NCBI GenBank assembly: GCA_902785935.1
Contig: CADAAN010000001.1
Location: 1-57,056 of the forward strand
Origin: an uncultured Pseudomonadota bacterium
GTDB taxonomy: Bacteria > Pseudomonadota > Alphaproteobacteria > RF32 > CAG-239
DNA length: 57,056 nt
Reading direction: 5' to 3'
In this document: piece by piece, positions 7,119-56,539 of the stretch
Layout: every line of letters starts with the position of its first letter
Position numbering within the stretch: the stretch's first letter is position 1
Notes under the pieces: model-generated
The model's input: only the letters and a program-made list of their open reading frames with translations
Databases searched by the model: none
Told to the model about the DNA's origin: nothing
Position numbers and translations under genes: made by a program

Positions 7119-7895
7119 TTACCGATACCTTATCGAGAAGGTATTTGTCTTGCCCGCCACGGCATTCGCCTCATCGATGGTGTAAATGCGCTTTTTGATG
7201 TAATTCGGCGTGCCGATATCACTGAGCCGAGCATAGTATTTGCCGCCTACAAGATATTGATTGTCAGATGTTTGTTGATATTCAATAACTTCTGCCGCGT
7301 CGCCGCGATAAGCGATGGCGGCTTCACAAGCATCCTTCATTTGAGGAGCGCAATAAAGTTTTTCAATCAATGTCGGAGTACTATTATTAGCTTTGAAAGC
7401 TGTCGGACTCAATGTAGTATTTGCGGGAATAACAAGTGTTGTGATACCTGTTGTTTCGAGCGCTTCTGTATCAATAGTAACATTATCCGGTATTGTTAAA
7501 TTTTCAAGAGAGGTACAATTTTCTAATCCGCCTGGGAGTATCTCTCTTAAAGATTGCGGTAATTCAATATTTTTCAAATTTTCAAATCTAAAAAATGCAT
7601 TATAACCAATGCTTGTAATGCCTTCCTCGATACTAATGTTTTGGATGTTATTTCTAACAGCATACCAAGGTTCGCTCGTCGTGTACCAGCCTCCCATCGG
7701 GCCCTGACCGGAAAGTGTCATTGTACCGACCGATTTGATTGAGCCGTCGGGCTGAACTTCATCTTCATAAGTCACGTGTGCGAGGCAATTTTCGCCGCAC
7801 TGAAAACAATCAGTGTCGTTAAGTGTTTCAAGTGTACAATCCGCTTTTGCATTGAAACTCAGAATTAATCCCAAAATCAAAACATATTTCTTCAT
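7119..7895 (-). CDS. Secreted LRR (BspA-like) protein 1 with conserved C-terminal tail
   Basis: A 258-residue protein with a signal peptide (MKKYVLILGLILSFNAKA, cleavage before DCTLE). A cysteine-rich N-terminus (CFQCGENC) is followed by short leucine-rich repeats of the LRR_5/BspA type (ITSIGYNAFFRFENLKNIEL, then LRE, LENLTIP, ITTLVIP units). A linker (EKLYCAPQMKDACEAAIAYRGD) leads to the tail KKRIYTIDEANAVAGK then NTFSIRYR. The tail recurs in LRR genes at 30327, 33742 and 41030 and in the remnant at 55825. BspA-like LRR proteins often mediate surface adhesion; no ligand can be predicted here. A class 1 leader RNA ends just upstream. Confidence 0.82.
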   Translation of the reverse strand: MKKYVLILGLILSFNAKADCTLETLNDTDCFQCGENCLAHVTYEDEVQPDGSIKSVGTMTLSGQGPMGGWYTTSEPWYAVRNNIQNISIEEGITSIGYNAFFRFENLKNIELPQSLREILPGGLENCTSLENLTIPDNVTIDTEALETTGITTLVIPANTTLSPTAFKANNSTPTLIEKLYCAPQMKDACEAAIAYRGDAAEVIEYQQTSDNQYLVGGKYYARLSDIGTPNYIKKRIYTIDEANAVAGKTNTFSIRYR

Positions 7896-7926: not shown

Positions 7927-8082
7927 AAAAAAATCACTTCAGAAAAAATCCAAAGTGGGAGCTATACGAACTGTGTAGATGCAGTTTCTCTTCTTCGTCA
8001 CAAAGTGCTTATTCCGAGAACTCCCTTTAAAAGGAGTCTTTATCTACAAAGTGTCGTATAACACCGCAACCATTTTGGTTAC
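7927..8082 (-). ncRNA. Class 1 structured leader RNA, copy a (upstream of LRR protein 1)
   Basis: Read on the minus strand, the RNA starts with the conserved hairpin AACCAAAATGGTT and GCGGTGTT. Two long-range helices follow: P1 (TATACGA 8060-8054 with TCGTATA 7969-7963) and P2 (TGTAGAT 8048-8042 with ATCTACA 7980-7974). An internal hairpin ACTCC/GGAGT lies at about 8035-8019. The RNA ends in an intrinsic terminator (CACTTT/GAAGTG stem, U-run 7933-7927) 31 bp before the ATG. P1 and P2 keep pairing in the three other copies despite different bases. The family is not one I recognise. It is either a cis-acting attenuator/riboswitch or a separate small RNA. Confidence 0.8.
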
Positions 8083-30326: not shown

Positions 30327-31172
30327 TCAGCGGTATCTTATCTTGACCGAATTAACCTTTCCCGCCACCTGATTTGCATCATCGATAGTGTAAATGCGCT
30401 TTTTGATATAATTTTGTGTACCGATTTTACCGAGACTGTCATAAAATTTGCCACCATAAAGATACTCGTTTCCAAGACGTCTGTACATTTTTAAGTCCAC
30501 ATCTTCAAGAGGTACATAGCCACCGTCAACCCCCGTAAAAGAGTCGGCGTCTTTTAAGTAATCAGCGCATTTTTTCTGATATTTTTCTGAGCAATATATT
30601 TCATTGATATGTGTTAATGCGCTATGAGCCATCCCTAAACCACCCTCATCAAACAAAGAGTCCGGAAGTATAAGACTTGTCACACCGGATGCTCCGAAAT
30701 TATAATGTCCGAGGTATTTAAGCGAATCCGGCAACTCGATATGCGTCAATAAAGGGTCACCATAAAAAACGGCTACATTTATCCTTTCAAGCTGTGAATT
30801 TTCTTCAAAATTAACTGATGTTAAGTTTCTCATTGACTGAAAAGCTCCATCGCCGATAGATAGAACCGAATTGCCTATTTTAGCAGACGTTAACTGCGCT
30901 TGATGAAAAGCAAGTGTTCCGATAGATGTAATACCCGATATTTCAACCGTAGAAATATCTGTTCCCCATGGTGAAGGATTGTCATAATAAGTATGTGTAT
31001 AATCAGCCATTTTTCCAGTACCCCAAATCTTGAGATTTCCCTCATCATCAAGGCTCCAGTTACAATCATCATAAGTTTGTGTATTTTCATTATATGCACC
31101 GCAATTACCCGATGTTTCGGCATTGACGTTAAAACTTAAAACTAACCCTAAAATCAAAATTATTTTTTTCAT
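30327..31172 (-). CDS. Secreted LRR (BspA-like) protein 2 with conserved C-terminal tail
   Basis: A 281-residue protein with a signal peptide (MKKIILILGLVLSFNVNA). LRR units occur at about residues 75-190 (ISGITSIGTLAFHQAQLTSA, NSVLSIGDGAFQSM, LTHIELPDSLKYLG, VTSLILPDSL). A linker containing CSEKYQKKCADYLKD and YLYGGKFYDSLGKIG precedes the tail KKRIYTIDDANQVAGK then NSVKIRYR. The YLYGGKFYDSLG segment matches YLVGGKYYARLS in LRR protein 1. A class 1 leader RNA ends about 95 bp upstream. Host-surface binding is a family-level guess. Confidence 0.82.
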   Translation of the reverse strand: MKKIILILGLVLSFNVNAETSGNCGAYNENTQTYDDCNWSLDDEGNLKIWGTGKMADYTHTYYDNPSPWGTDISTVEISGITSIGTLAFHQAQLTSAKIGNSVLSIGDGAFQSMRNLTSVNFEENSQLERINVAVFYGDPLLTHIELPDSLKYLGHYNFGASGVTSLILPDSLFDEGGLGMAHSALTHINEIYCSEKYQKKCADYLKDADSFTGVDGGYVPLEDVDLKMYRRLGNEYLYGGKFYDSLGKIGTQNYIKKRIYTIDDANQVAGKVNSVKIRYR

Positions 31173-31266: not shown

Positions 31267-31423
31267 AAAAAAAATCACTTCAGAAAATTCCAAAGTGGGA
31301 GCTAGATGAACTGTCAAAACGCAGTTTCTTTTATTCGTCACAAATGTGCTTATCTCAAGAACTCCCTTTTAAAGGAGTTTATGTTTTGAAAGTGTCATCT
31401 AACACCGCAACCATTTTGGTTAC
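31267..31423 (-). ncRNA. Class 1 structured leader RNA, copy b (upstream of LRR protein 2)
   Basis: Minus strand, starting GTAACCAAAATGGTT. P1 pairs TAGATGA (31401-31395) with TCATCTA (31309-31303); P2 pairs TCAAAAC (31389-31383) with GTTTTGA (31320-31314). Both differ from copy a yet stay paired. The internal hairpin is ACTCCT/GGGAGT. The terminator ends in the U-run 31274-31267. Unlike the other copies, about 95 bp separate the terminator from the gene start. Promoter: TTGACT 31458-31453, 17-bp spacer, AAAAAT 31435-31430. Confidence 0.8.
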
Positions 31424-33741: not shown

Positions 33742-34578
33742 TCATCTATACCTAATCGAAACAGTATTCGTCTTGCCTGCAACAACATTCGCTTCATCGA
33801 TGGTATAAATACGTTTTTTGTTGTAATCACCTGATAAAATATCACTTGCGTTGTTATACCAATGATTTTTATAAAAAATTTTATTACCATCTTTTTTATA
33901 GGTTATTATATTGATTTCTTTTCCTAAATCTTTTTTCCATTGTGTGGCTGCTGCACATTGGTCGGCAACAGCTTCACTGCAATAGAGATTTTTAATTAAA
34001 GCGCTACTATGATCGTCATCTTCTCCACCAAAAGCGTTAGGTGAAACAATTGTTACGGTTGACGGAACGGTAAAATTTTCGATTTGTGTATTACAAAAAG
34101 CGCGATAAGGAAGTTCTGTAATACCTTCAGGAATATTATTAATATTTTCAAGCTGAGAGTACGCAAATGCATAAACTCCCAAGGACGTTAAAGTGCTCGG
34201 TAAATCAATGTTTGTAATATTCGTTGCTTCAAAAGATGAATTACCGATTGATTCCAGGCCTTCCGGCAATTCAACGGAAGTTACTGAGTGCATCCTGAAA
34301 AAAGCACCATCACCGATTGATGAAATACCATCACTGACAATAATTTTTGATACACCGCTATCATACCATGGAGCATCATTGTAACAGTCAAAGTCGTCGC
34401 AATGTATATAAGATTGTATGCTTGCCGACTGGGAAAAATCAATCGGTGAAATGGTCAAAACACCATCTTCAATGATATATTTGCAATTTGTACCGCAAGT
34501 GTAAAGTTCATCAGCTTTGAGGTTAATGCACAATAAAAAAGCAGATGCAAAAGAAATTAACAATTTTGAATAATTCAT
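33742..34578 (-). CDS. Secreted LRR (BspA-like) protein 3 with conserved C-terminal tail
   Basis: A 278-residue protein with a signal peptide (MNYSKLLISFASAFLLCINL, cleaved near KADEL). A CGTNCKYIIEDG motif is followed by LRR units (ISSIGDGAFFRMHSVTSVEL, LESIGNSSFEATNITNIDL, LTSLGVYAFAYSQLENI). A linker with CSEAVADQCAAATQWKKDLG leads to KKRIYTIDEANVVAGK then NTVSIRYR. In contrast to the other intact LRR genes, it is preceded by a class 2, not class 1, leader RNA. An AAGGATAAATGAG ribosome site precedes the ATG. Confidence 0.82.
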   Translation of the reverse strand: MNYSKLLISFASAFLLCINLKADELYTCGTNCKYIIEDGVLTISPIDFSQSASIQSYIHCDDFDCYNDAPWYDSGVSKIIVSDGISSIGDGAFFRMHSVTSVELPEGLESIGNSSFEATNITNIDLPSTLTSLGVYAFAYSQLENINNIPEGITELPYRAFCNTQIENFTVPSTVTIVSPNAFGGEDDDHSSALIKNLYCSEAVADQCAAATQWKKDLGKEINIITYKKDGNKIFYKNHWYNNASDILSGDYNKKRIYTIDEANVVAGKTNTVSIRYR

Positions 34579-34604
34579 CTCATTTATCCTTATTTAGTTG
34601 AAAC

Positions 34605-34858
34605 AAAAAGTCGCACCTTTGATGGAGCGACGGGGTGTAAAACAACCATATAGTATGAAATGATCCCAATAATCTTTAGGAGAACCTTGTACATTCATTA
34701 TCGGCACCCCGACTTTTTTCGGGGATAATGGTGTTTTTAAAAACAAAAAAAACACTATAAAATTACAGTGTTACCATCACTGCATACTATAATAAGCTGT
34801 TTTAGAGCCCCGCACCCTATCAGGGTACTGAACAGAAAAGCCCAAACTTCTCTATCTG
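34605..34858 (-). ncRNA. Class 2 structured leader RNA, copy b (upstream of LRR protein 3)
   Basis: Minus strand. The long-range helix pairs TATAGTATG (34791-34783) with CATACTATA (34657-34649). The second helix pairs CCGATAAT (34704-34697) with ATTATTGG (34673-34666; one G-U). The CCCCGA/TCGGGG hairpin is conserved. 5' hairpins include ACCCT-GAT-AGGGT. The terminator has stem GTCGC/GCGAC (34631-34610) with U-run 34609-34605, 26 bp before the ATG. Promoter: TTGACA 34893-34888, 17-bp spacer, AATCAT 34870-34865. Bases before the terminator (CCCCG) are complementary to CGGGG at 34812-34808. Confidence 0.78.
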
Positions 34859-40998: not shown

Positions 40999-41031
40999 GA
41001 ACCACGCCCTTTATGCGTGGTTCTTTTTTTT
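40999..41031 (+). terminator. Intrinsic terminator of the 40401 gene
   Basis: Perfect 9-bp stem GAACCACGC (40999-41007) with GCGTGGTTC (41015-41023), followed by T8. It abuts the stop of the convergent LRR gene. Confidence 0.88.
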
Positions 41032-42043
41032 ATCGATACCGAATCGAGAAAGTATTGGTTTTACCTGCGACCTGATTGGCCTCATCGATGGTGTAAATGC
41101 GGAATTTGACATTGTTGCCTAAAGCAAAATCTTCCATCGAATTATAAATCTTTGAACCGACTTTGAAAGGCGCACCGTTTGAGGCCAATATATCTTCACA
41201 GTTTTGTTTGTCCGTGCATGCCGCACCACTTGCAAACAAATCAAGCGTTGCCCAATATTTTCCGCCGACTTCAAAGGGCTTGCCCTGCGAGGCGGCATCC
41301 AAAATATCTTGGCAGTTTTGCGCATTATCACAAGCGGCGCCTTTGGTCATCAAATCTGCCGTTGCATAAAGTTTATCCCCGATTTGATAAAATCCGTCGT
41401 CGCTTTTTTGATACGCTATCACAGAAACATTATCTCCGCGATAAGCAACCACTGCCGCACAAGCATCTTTCTGTTCAGAAAGACAATAAATTTTTTCAAT
41501 CGGCGTACTGCCATAATACGGACTGTCAAAAATATCCTCTCCTGAAAGTAATTTTGCATTCTTGGGGATAACAATGCTTGTTAAGCCGGTTCCCTGCAAT
41601 GATGCACGATGGATATTAACACCATCCGGAAGTGATAGCGATTTTAATTGAGGACAAGATTGAAAAGCCCCCGGTTCTAAATTAAGCAATGTTGACGGGA
41701 GTTCAACTTCAGATAAGTTCATAAAATGATAAAAACCATTAAACCCGACAGAGGTTATTCCTTCATCAACCACGACTTTTGTAACTTCTGAAGATTTGAC
41801 ATACCAAGGTGTGGGTGTGTCGCCATCATAATTAAAATTTCCCATATTACCTTCACCCGAAACGGTTAGAATTTTTTCGGTCGTATTATTATTTTTTATC
41901 GATTCGCTATATCTCATAACACAACTTGCACCACATTCAAAACAAGTCTTTGCTTGCATTTCCGAATCACTGCAAGGTACATATGTTGATGCATATATTT
42001 TAAAACTGAGCATAAAACTCACAATAAAGGCCCTTTGTTTCAT
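41030..42043 (-). CDS. Secreted LRR (BspA-like) protein 4 with a duplicated C-terminal module and conserved tail
   Basis: A 337-residue protein with a signal peptide (MKQRAFIVSFMLSFKIYAS). CFECGASC resembles CFQCGENC of LRR protein 1. LRR units follow (ITSVGFNGFYHFMNLSEVEL, LTSIVIP). The linker CLSEQKDACAAVVAYRGDN matches protein 1. Two copies of a module of about 36 residues occur at about 225-298 (LYATADLMTKGAACDNAQNC; YWATLDLFASGAACTDKQNC). The tail FRIYTIDEANQVAGK then NTFSIRYR closes the protein. A class 1 leader RNA ends 26 bp upstream. Confidence 0.82.
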   Translation of the reverse strand: MKQRAFIVSFMLSFKIYASTYVPCSDSEMQAKTCFECGASCVMRYSESIKNNNTTEKILTVSGEGNMGNFNYDGDTPTPWYVKSSEVTKVVVDEGITSVGFNGFYHFMNLSEVELPSTLLNLEPGAFQSCPQLKSLSLPDGVNIHRASLQGTGLTSIVIPKNAKLLSGEDIFDSPYYGSTPIEKIYCLSEQKDACAAVVAYRGDNVSVIAYQKSDDGFYQIGDKLYATADLMTKGAACDNAQNCQDILDAASQGKPFEVGGKYWATLDLFASGAACTDKQNCEDILASNGAPFKVGSKIYNSMEDFALGNNVKFRIYTIDEANQVAGKTNTFSIRYR

Positions 42044-42068: not shown

Positions 42069-42225
42069 AAAAAAATCACTTCAGAAAAATTCCAAAGTGG
42101 AGGAGCTACTAAACTGTCAACACACAGTTTCTCTCATTCGTGCAAAAGCCTTATATCGAGAACTCCTACCAAAGAGGAGTTATGTGTTGAATGTGTTTAG
42201 TAAACACCGCAACCATTTTGGTTAC
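42069..42225 (-). ncRNA. Class 1 structured leader RNA, copy c (upstream of LRR protein 4)
   Basis: Minus strand, starting GTAACCAAAATGGTT. P1 pairs TACTAAA (42202-42196) with TTTAGTA (42113-42107). P2 pairs TCAACACA (42190-42183) with TGTGTTGA (42124-42117). The internal hairpin is ACTCCT/AGGAGT, and AGGAGTT (42167-42161) can pair with AGCTCCT (42107-42101) ahead of the terminator. The terminator stem CACTTT/GAAGTG ends in U-run 42075-42069. Promoter: TTGACA 42261-42256, 17-bp spacer, CATGAT 42238-42233. Confidence 0.8.
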
Positions 42226-47944: not shown

Positions 47945-48106
47945 GTAACCAAAATGGTTGCGGTGTTTAGATGACATCTTCTTGAAGCATAGCTCCTTTA
48001 AAGAGGAGTTGTTGAGATAAGGGTATTTTGCCGCGAATAAAACAAACTGTGCTTCAACAGTTCATCTAGCTCCTCCGTTTTAGGTTATTTAAGACGGATT
48101 TTTTTT
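47945..48106 (+). ncRNA. Class 1 structured leader RNA, copy d (upstream of prepilin-like gene)
   Basis: Plus-strand copy starting GTAACCAAAATGGTTGCGG. P1 pairs TAGATGA (47968-47974) with TCATCTA (48062-48068); P2 pairs TTGAAGCA (47982-47989) with TGCTTCAA (48050-48057). The internal hairpin is CTCCT/AGGAG. The terminator has a different stem from the other copies (TCCGTTTTA 48074-48082 with TAAGACGGA 48090-48098) but the same position, then T8 (48099-48106). The gene starts 20 bp later. This copy shows the leader is not confined to LRR genes. Confidence 0.82.
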
Positions 48107-48126: not shown

Positions 48127-48741
48127 ATGAAAAATAATGAAACAGGCAGAAGTATGGTCGAGATGCTGGGCGTGTTGGCCATTGTCGGGGTATTATCGGC
48201 GGGCGCGTTAAAAGGTTATTCATCCGCGATGTTTAAATACAAAATGAATCAAACGATTGACATCACAACAAGGATGTTTCAACGCATTGAGGAACTGTCT
48301 CAAAAAGATTTGGGGAGCGAAGCGATTATCCAAGCAAGCAATGCCGTTGAATGGGGGCTTTTGGAAAAATGCGATTTAGAAGATGGATACAAATGCCGCC
48401 TGCCGATAGGAAGTGTTAGCGTAGATTTTTATGATATACCTGCTGATTATTGTTTTGATGGCAGTCCTGCAGGACTCGGAGGCCAGTTAGAATTTGAATT
48501 CACGGATGCAAAAAGTTGCACAGCCTTTTTATCGGCGCATTGGGAGCAAATGTTGCCTCAGGATTGGTGGAATCCGAATGGGTTTTTATTGGTTGAAGGA
48601 GAAAAAGAAGAAACCCATCTTTATTATCCGGGAGAAGATATAACGGAGATGCCGACAATGTCTGATTTTACAAATGCCTGCCAAAAAATATGTATAAACG
48701 GAAAGTGCTGGATTTTCTTACGATATCGTAACTGGTGTTAA
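48127..48741 (+). CDS. Prepilin-like protein (type IV pilin N-terminal methylation motif)
   Basis: A 204-residue protein. The start MKNNETGRSMVEMLGVLAIV has a prepilin peptidase site (cleavage after Gly7, Glu at +5) and a hydrophobic helix to about residue 30. The rest is a cysteine-containing globular domain ending in a cysteine pair (CQKICINGKC) and LRYRNWC. It is probably a pseudopilin or minor pilin placed at the surface by type II/IV machinery; no assembly genes are nearby. It is preceded by a class 1 leader RNA and followed by its own terminator. Confidence 0.82.
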   Translation: MKNNETGRSMVEMLGVLAIVGVLSAGALKGYSSAMFKYKMNQTIDITTRMFQRIEELSQKDLGSEAIIQASNAVEWGLLEKCDLEDGYKCRLPIGSVSVDFYDIPADYCFDGSPAGLGGQLEFEFTDAKSCTAFLSAHWEQMLPQDWWNPNGFLLVEGEKEETHLYYPGEDITEMPTMSDFTNACQKICINGKCWIFLRYRNWC

Positions 48742-55824: not shown

Positions 55825-56015
55825 TCACCTGTACCTTATCTTCACGAAATTAACCTTCCCCGCAACGGCATTGGCCTCATCGATGGTATAGATGCGTTTG
55901 CCCTCATAGCCGAGAATATCACCATTTGCATTTTTCACGGTTATACTGCCGTCAGCGTTTTTGATATAATAGCTGTTGTTGCCATTAATACAAATATAAA
56001 TTGATTGTTTTTCAT
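55825..56015 (-). pseudogene. Collapsed LRR gene: start plus conserved C-terminal tail only
   Basis: Below the class 2 leader there is a ribosome site (AAGGAG) and an ATG at 56015 opening a signal-like peptide (MKNNQFIFVLMATTAIISK) that ends after 24 codons. In another frame, from 55983 to 55825, the typical LRR-protein end is intact: YYIKNADGSITVKN, GYEGKRIYTIDEANAVAGK, then NFVKIRYR. The signal, LRR and linker regions between were lost, with a frame change. The tail itself has no disabling mutation, so the loss may be recent, or the tail may be kept. Confidence 0.7.
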
Positions 56016-56042
56016 ATTTTTTCTCCTTATAATATTACAAAC

Positions 56043-56269
56043 AAAAACCGCCTTTTAAAAAGCGGTCAGGGTGTTAGAAAATCATACAGAGTGAAATGAC
56101 TCCGATAGCCTTTAGAATAAATTTCCTGAACATTCGCCATCGGCACCCCGATCAAAACTTCGGGGATAAACGTTGTTTAAAACAAAAAACAACACCATAA
56201 AACAACAGTGTTATCCTTCACTGCACCCTGTAAGAGCTTTCTAAAGCCCTGCACTTCTTCTGAAATGCA
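56043..56269 (-). ncRNA. Class 2 structured leader RNA, copy c (upstream of collapsed LRR gene)
   Basis: Minus strand. A 5' hairpin (TGCATTTC/GAAGTGCA) is followed by the long-range helix TACAGGGTG (56232-56224) with CACTCTGTA (56093-56085; one G-U), the helix CCGATGGC (56143-56136) with GCTATCGG (56109-56102) and the CCCCGA/TCGGGG hairpin. The terminator is ACCGC/GCGGT (56066-56047) with U-run 56047-56043. Promoter: TTGACA 56304-56299, 17-bp spacer, TTATAA 56281-56276. CAGGG (56251-56247) is complementary to CCCTG just before the terminator (56071-56067). Confidence 0.78.
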
Positions 56270-56326
56270 TTTTCATTATAATTAAATTCAGCAGTACTTG
56301 TCAACAAAAAAATATATAAAATACCT

Positions 56327-56539
56327 CTACGGCACAGGATCGTCACCTGAACCACCCCACGGATGACACCTTAAAATACGTTTTATTCCAAGGTAAAAAC
56401 CTTTGAAAGGGCCGTATTTTTCAATTGCCTCAATCATATAAGCCGAACAGGTCGGCCTATATCGGCAACACCCCGGAAAAAAGGGGGATAAAAATTTTTG
56501 ATAAAAACGTACAAGCTTAATTAACAGAAACTTCATCAA
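56327..56539 (-). CDS. yidD: Membrane protein insertion efficiency factor YidD
   Basis: A 70-residue protein with the cysteine motif [20 protein letters not shown] and [16 protein letters not shown]. YidD assists membrane protein insertion by YidC. It overlaps rnpA by 23 bp, the usual rpmH-rnpA-yidD order. Confidence 0.94.

Follow-up and report, generated by a model that had tools for sequence, protein, structure and literature searches.

Many secreted proteins of an uncultured alphaproteobacterium from the ruminant gut share a short C-terminal tail, joined to otherwise unrelated bodies. It is near certain that this tail is a conserved module under selection, and profile comparisons make it very probable that it was derived from the helix and strand at the C-terminus of a type IVb pilin. 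With modest confidence, we favour a role as a split-pilin docking tag, in which the tail would complete a truncated minor pilin in trans; the proteins are probably hung on pili, or exported via the pilus machine, by means of it. If true, this would explain the very large surface-protein repertoire of a gut bacterium with a small genome, and type IV pili would be loadable with interchangeable cargo through the completion of a split subunit.

The tail in the window and in related genomes

The window (the whole stretch of DNA analysed, 57,056 nucleotides) belongs to a genome of 1.46 Mb in 73 contigs with a completeness of over 99%. The following tail-bearing features were located in it:

7119..7895 (-), intact secreted BspA-type LRR protein of 258 aa with a canonical tail; Pfam LRR_5 match
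7122..7193 (-), C-terminal tail of the preceding protein, KRIYTIDEANAVAGKTNTFSIRYR, the 24 codons preceding the stop
30327..31172 (-), intact LRR protein of 281 aa, ending in KRIYTIDDANQVAGKVNSVKIRYR; Pfam LRR_5 match
33742..34578 (-), intact LRR protein of 278 aa, ending in KRIYTIDEANVVAGKTNTVSIRYR; Pfam LRR_5 match, AlphaFold2 model
41030..42043 (-), intact LRR protein of 337 aa, ending in FRIYTIDEANQVAGKTNTFSIRYR; Pfam LRR_5 match
55825..56034 (-), remnant with the start of a signal peptide, then the tail GKRIYTIDEANAVAGKVNFVKIRYR out of frame

The initial annotation had described a shared ending, RIYTIDEAN-x-VAGK-x-N-x3-IRYR, on four intact proteins and a remnant. This was confirmed, with RIYTID(E/D)AN.VAGK.N...IRYR forming the C-terminal end in 4/4 intact LRR proteins of the window, all of which match LRR_5 (Pfam) and contain no prepilin motif. 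The tail consensus reads KRIYTIDEANxVAGKTNTFSIRYR; it contains neither a hydrophobic helix nor a cysteine, and its end is amphipathic with a conserved penultimate aromatic residue.

The recurrence of the tail is far above chance. A single-tail query against the window's own genome returned more than 100 matches, and HMM iteration over fetched stretches placed the tail on about 114 open reading frames (ORFs), nearly all with zero residues beyond it; the weak matches left over were non-specific. A Sec-type signal peptide was called on 91/114 of these ORFs by a simple hydrophobicity rule, the other 23 being mostly short remnants, broken copies or contig-end cuts. Many remnants in the genome retain the tail alone.

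Searches with a 39-row tail profile covered 11 genomes of the genus and a class sample of 385 genomes. The tail is present in 9/11 genomes of the genus, with a few to more than 100 copies each, and matches weakly in one sister-genus genome; no tail was detected with this profile in the other genomes of the class sample. The named tail-bearing relatives (RUG11221, RGIG5118, RGIG9974 and RGIG10106) are ruminant-gut metagenome genomes, labelled "uncultured proteobacterium" or "Alphaproteobacteria bacterium". A related tail, ..YTIQEADAATSDDNENMIEWIFE, occurs on at least 57 secreted proteins of G138, a genome of the sister genus (g3). At the loci inspected there (L265-L273), LRR proteins with this IEWIFE tail (at least 57) are scattered singly among housekeeping genes.

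Bodies joined to the tail

The tail is not a property of LRR proteins as such. It had been presented as a feature shared by all LRR proteins of the window, and most carriers are indeed of this type: Pfam places LRR_5 in 69 of 87 intact tail proteins, while RHS_repeat is found in four, MORN_2 in three, and the rest match nothing clear. In G006, a genome with ten tails and no LRR_5 match, the tail is carried by YD-repeat proteins and by secreted proteins of 120-150 aa that have Ser/Asn-rich linkers. The linkers between LRR and tail vary. In the AlphaFold2 model of the 33742-34578 protein, the LRR body has pLDDT values mostly above 95, and the tail is modelled as a short helix with an extended end at pLDDT 73-82. 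That most tail carriers are LRR proteins would suit a cap that closes the LRR domain at its C-terminus; however, the variable linkers, the separate and less confident tail beside a confident LRR body, and the occurrence of the tail on RHS/YD and short proteins, even in a genome without LRR_5 matches, make a cap extremely unlikely. The cap reading was rejected because the tail is found without LRRs.

Tail proteins of about 125 aa are repeatedly second in a two-gene unit in G006 and G004 (L255-L259, L263), where the first gene encodes a larger secreted protein of about 220-390 aa with YD-like repeats and without a tail.

Selection and species dialects

Selection acts on the tail at the peptide level. 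The 87 ungapped tails give a pN of 0.169 and a pS of 0.738, as compared with 0.658 and 0.722 in the 24 codons immediately upstream, which bears out the earlier remark that the DNA of these ends differs mainly at synonymous positions. Beyond the stop codon, the 3' flank is near random across tail genes.

The peptide also varies by species. Tail identity within genomes exceeds that between genomes by 0.128, a difference reached in 0/300 label permutations, with dialects such as VAGKTNTFSIRYR in the window genome, VAGDKNRVSIKYR in RUG11221 and VSKKTGNTFKLRYK in RGIG5118; loci of the named relatives were retrieved by a pattern on the tail's first half, so that sampling there is not bias-free. At invariant tail residues, the synonymous codon difference is 0.45-0.50 against 0.48-0.49 expected from codon usage (three genomes with at least 17 tails), and synonymous codons are hardly closer within genomes than between them. 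Because these codons lie at the codon-usage expectation, recent DNA copying is not how the dialect spread. Recent gene conversion as the sole cause was rejected on the same codon evidence together with the unrelated 3' flank. The tail thus offers a clear case of about 100 genes with one species-specific peptide code and randomised synonymous sites.

Bodies common to different species (85-95% DNA identity) bear the local dialect. In most pairs whose cross-species block extends as far as the tail, the end of the block lies 30-60 nt upstream of the stop codon; in the L001 group of pairs, similarity continues through the tail with the dialect residues changed, and the L009/L179 pair has an identical tail. 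This pattern may owe something both to selection for a local code and to recombination within the tail, and recombination alone could have placed the breakpoints there. These block ends, along with the many tail-only remnants, are what a recombination handle would leave, that is, conserved DNA which lets bodies swap onto resident 3' ends while the peptide does little. We consider such a handle very improbable, since it would conserve nucleotides, whereas here the residues are strongly constrained and the synonymous codons randomised. The earlier idea that the terminal tag is a sorting, anchoring or assembly signal is supported by the many bodies, the Sec signal peptides (91/114), the dialects and the peptide-level selection.

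Likeness to the type IVb pilin C-terminus

The window genome (G000) contains about 34 type IVb prepilin-like genes (L292-L321), and many of its prepilins end in YTMDDAISACSG..VSWKFY-like segments. Such a number in 1.46 Mb is an unusual expansion of pilin genes. One prepilin-like gene lies in the window:

48127..48741 (+), type IV prepilin-like protein GRSMVEMLGVLAIVGVLSAG..., with the last strand CWIFLRYRNWC at the pilin position resembled by the tail

In the pilin alignment, this last strand aligns with the pilin strand ..WKFY, which the tail resembles. The suggestion that its LRYRNWC ending may be chance can therefore be kept for the letter likeness of LRYR, but not for the strand. When searched against solved structures, the pilin profile matches bundlin and the toxin-coregulated pilin.

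Intermediate "YFR" tails were found on three further proteins (..LYTTDEALSAVTGNGNNRLSIYFK, ..NYTASEAAIAATGHGDNSLSFYFR and ..QYSVQEASELLRDTPDNSITFYFR). In hhalign comparisons, the YFR tails, which are few (n=3), match the pilin C-terminus with a probability of 92% and E 7.5e-7 over 28 columns (0/100 column permutations), and the canonical tail matches the YFR tails at E 1.7e-5 (0/100 column permutations). Likewise, the canonical tail matches the G138 (g3) tail with a probability of 96% and E 3e-9, and the latter matches the pilin C-terminus at E 1.5e-4 (0/150 permutations). The direct comparison of canonical tail and pilin is weak (E 0.02, with 1/150 permutations as good), and the pilin link thus rests on the intermediates. 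A single-profile HMM for pilin versus tail did place the canonical tails above other ORF ends, but with moderate discrimination only (AUC 0.85). A g3-tail profile, built from LRR proteins only and then searched across the family, was examined at 21 loci of other genera; 20 matches could be placed in ORFs, 7 of them at the ORF C-terminus, and 7/7 of these are type IV prepilins (for example, prepilin ..ACSNNDDNQIEWIFY versus tail ..SDDNENMIEWIFE). The AlphaFold2 model of a short tail protein is poor (mean pLDDT 64.5), with the tail helix predicted and nothing further.

The tail proteins are not pilins, since they open with Sec-type signal peptides and have neither a prepilin leader nor a hydrophobic alpha-1 N-terminus. 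As regards the cysteine pair of the D-region disulphide, the tail consensus is without cysteine, and truncated pilins of the genome likewise lack the aligned one (see below). The initial annotation knew of no described sorting signal with this sequence, and literature searches indeed found no description of the tail; the likeness to the type IVb pilin C-terminal helix and strand qualifies that statement. It had also set membership of a known domain fold against the idea of a signal. Owing to the likeness to the genome's own type IVb pilin C-terminus, such membership applies in part: the tail is a piece of a known fold that has come loose and been joined to other proteins.

Truncated prepilins beside tail genes

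Four truncated prepilin genes were found in the window genome and G006, the first three having been recognised in the pilin alignment:

C23:8934, truncated prepilin, window genome
C1:59044, truncated prepilin, window genome
C8:37950, truncated prepilin, window genome
G006 C11, fourth truncated prepilin

The truncated prepilins end where the tail-like segment would start (..NEAEE versus ..NEGKAYSMSDAITTC..VSWKFY). They reach profile positions 103-114 of 151 in Pfam Bundlin and 93-109 of 138 in PilS, as compared with 137/151 and 133/138 for a full pilin, and no frameshifted remainder was found in the frames downstream. The D-region cysteine occurs in 30/30 of the other prepilins in the alignment but in none of the three truncated ones, and the truncated prepilin of G006 lacks it as well. 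For 3/4 truncated prepilin genes, in two species, the next gene encodes a secreted protein ending in the missing segment, and the bodies of these three proteins are unrelated (LRR, unique and YD). One of these operons is found some 1.2 kb past the window's right end. The truncated prepilin at C8:37950 is unlinked and is a candidate common partner of the approximately 100 canonical tails.

A self-standing outer-membrane sorting or anchoring signal with a dedicated translocon, its pilin likeness being superficial or ancestral, would agree with one tail on many bodies, the Sec signal peptides, the species dialects, and the amphipathic end with its conserved penultimate aromatic residue. We regard this as improbable in view of the permutation-controlled profile link to pilins and the pairing with truncated pilins; in addition, the tail has no PEP-CTERM-like hydrophobic helix and no match to CTERM or T9SS tail domains (Pfam, NCBIfam).

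Proposed docking and the pilus machine

In the split-pilin reading, the tail would be a detached copy of the type IVb pilin C-terminal helix and beta-strand. Sec signal peptides would bring the tail proteins into the periplasm, where the tail may insert in the pilin head of minor pilins that miss exactly that helix and strand, a trans-complementation formally akin to a split pilin or donor strand. The type IVb pilus machine encoded on contig C9 would then display the attached body (LRR, YD or other) on the surface or export it. Each species would have a tail dialect of its own since every tail has to fit the same truncated pilin, or the same few. We infer docking, surface display and the service of C8:37950 to about 100 canonical tails beyond the sequence data, and the AlphaFold2 models, being monomers, are uninformative on docking. 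A further proposal, which we hold tentatively and rate somewhat below an even chance, is a one-to-many platform in which one or few truncated minor pilins accept more than 100 secreted proteins, with a species dialect and with bodies swapped between species. The tail peptide and the truncated pilin form a concrete putative binding pair, and the tail could serve as a portable tag for display on pili.

Secretin was matched only once in the window genome, in the type IVb pilus locus on C9, which comprises TcpQ, secretin, PilO, ATPase (T2SSE), platform protein (T2SSF) and PilS genes. This locus adjoins conjugation-type VirB genes, which makes the role of the machine uncertain. Secretin was found in all same-genus genomes examined, with tails or not, except G006 (59% complete). 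It is present in G002 and G008 of the same genus, which have no detectable tails, and the pilus is thus probably there too, a point that weighs against the docking reading. Secretin was rejected as a tail-specific partner, as its occurrence with or without tails is not diagnostic.

For export by type IVb pili, TcpF and CofJ rely on a short, aromatic-centred, species-specific peptide that is bound by a minor pilin (PMC9565799). The tail might be a secretion signal of this kind, bound by a minor pilin, with the protein expelled via the secretin and set free and with no pilin fold completed. Both cases involve Sec-exported proteins tied to type IVb minor pilins by a short tag, a type IVb pilus locus is present, some tail genes lie beside minor pilins, and the failure of TcpF/CofJ signals to be recognised across species (PMC9565799) fits the tail dialects. 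However, those signals are N-terminal, differ from pilin sequences and mark just one or a few cargo proteins in each genome (PMC9565799), whereas the tail stands at the extreme C-terminus and resembles that of pilins; moreover, the pilins neighbouring tail genes miss the very segment that the tail resembles. We therefore judge this alternative unlikely, though the least so of those considered.

Relation to other known systems

Among type IVb pilins (PF05307 Bundlin, PF08805 PilS; BfpA 1zwt, TcpA 8uhf), it is the C-terminal helix and last strand of the window genome's own members that the tail resembles. In contrast to these pilins, the tail proteins have no prepilin leader, alpha-1 helix or D-region cysteine, and instead combine Sec signal peptides with unrelated bodies. 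In the split pilins of Desulfuromonadales, a truncated pilin is accompanied by a neighbouring protein that resembles the C-terminal part of a pilin (PMC5174107), and the truncated prepilin genes described here similarly lie beside a gene supplying the missing C-terminal part (3/4, two species). The Desulfuromonadales pilin is cut after the long helix and its partner is the pilin head (PMC5174107), whereas the tail comprises only the last helix and strand, on large unrelated bodies and in about 100 copies.

Modular pilins presenting large domains are widespread, e.g. PilB of Streptococcus sanguinis (PMC8179133). The tail proteins may likewise be functional modules presented by type IV pili; the PilB module is a covalent part of the pilin, while the body of a tail protein would join in trans by its tag. 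As with the C-terminal domains of type IX secretion and with PEP-CTERM-type tags, a single C-terminal tag recurs on many putative surface proteins. PEP-CTERM-like signals have a C-terminal hydrophobic helix and a basic end, and the tail is without the hydrophobic helix. Type IX secretion and CTERM-type tags were rejected, as no type IX CTD or CTERM family matched the tail proteins (Pfam, NCBIfam); SprA_N (type IX) matched neither the window genome nor any control genome, so that this negative result carries little weight. The combination of split pilin, pilus-export tag and modular display was not found described in the literature.

Leader RNAs of tail and prepilin genes

A class I structured leader RNA (model R1) precedes several of the window's genes:

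7928..8082 (-), class I leader RNA just 5' of the tail gene 7119..7895
31269..31423 (-), class I leader RNA 5' of the tail gene 30327-31172
42070..42225 (-), class I leader RNA 5' of the tail gene 41030-42043
47945..48104 (+), class I leader RNA 5' of the prepilin-like gene

This leader is about 155 nt long and ends in a terminator-like hairpin before the start codon. Covariation is strong, RNAalifold predicting 36 pairs with compensatory changes in 17, and no match was found in Rfam. There are 65 copies in the window genome and 85 in G007; among 53 listed copies of the 65, 42 precede tail genes and five prepilin-like genes, while five run into contig ends and one is unassigned. That tail and prepilin genes have this leader in common supports their co-regulation.

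Located 5' of tail genes are also 19 copies of a second leader type, GTACCCTGATAGGGTGCGG..., which contains a GTCGC/GCGAC hairpin as well as a U run. Two of its positions fall in the window:

about 56040-56330 (-), second leader type
about 34579-34830 (-), second leader type

A possible third leader type opens with ACCGAGAGGTTCGGGGCT.
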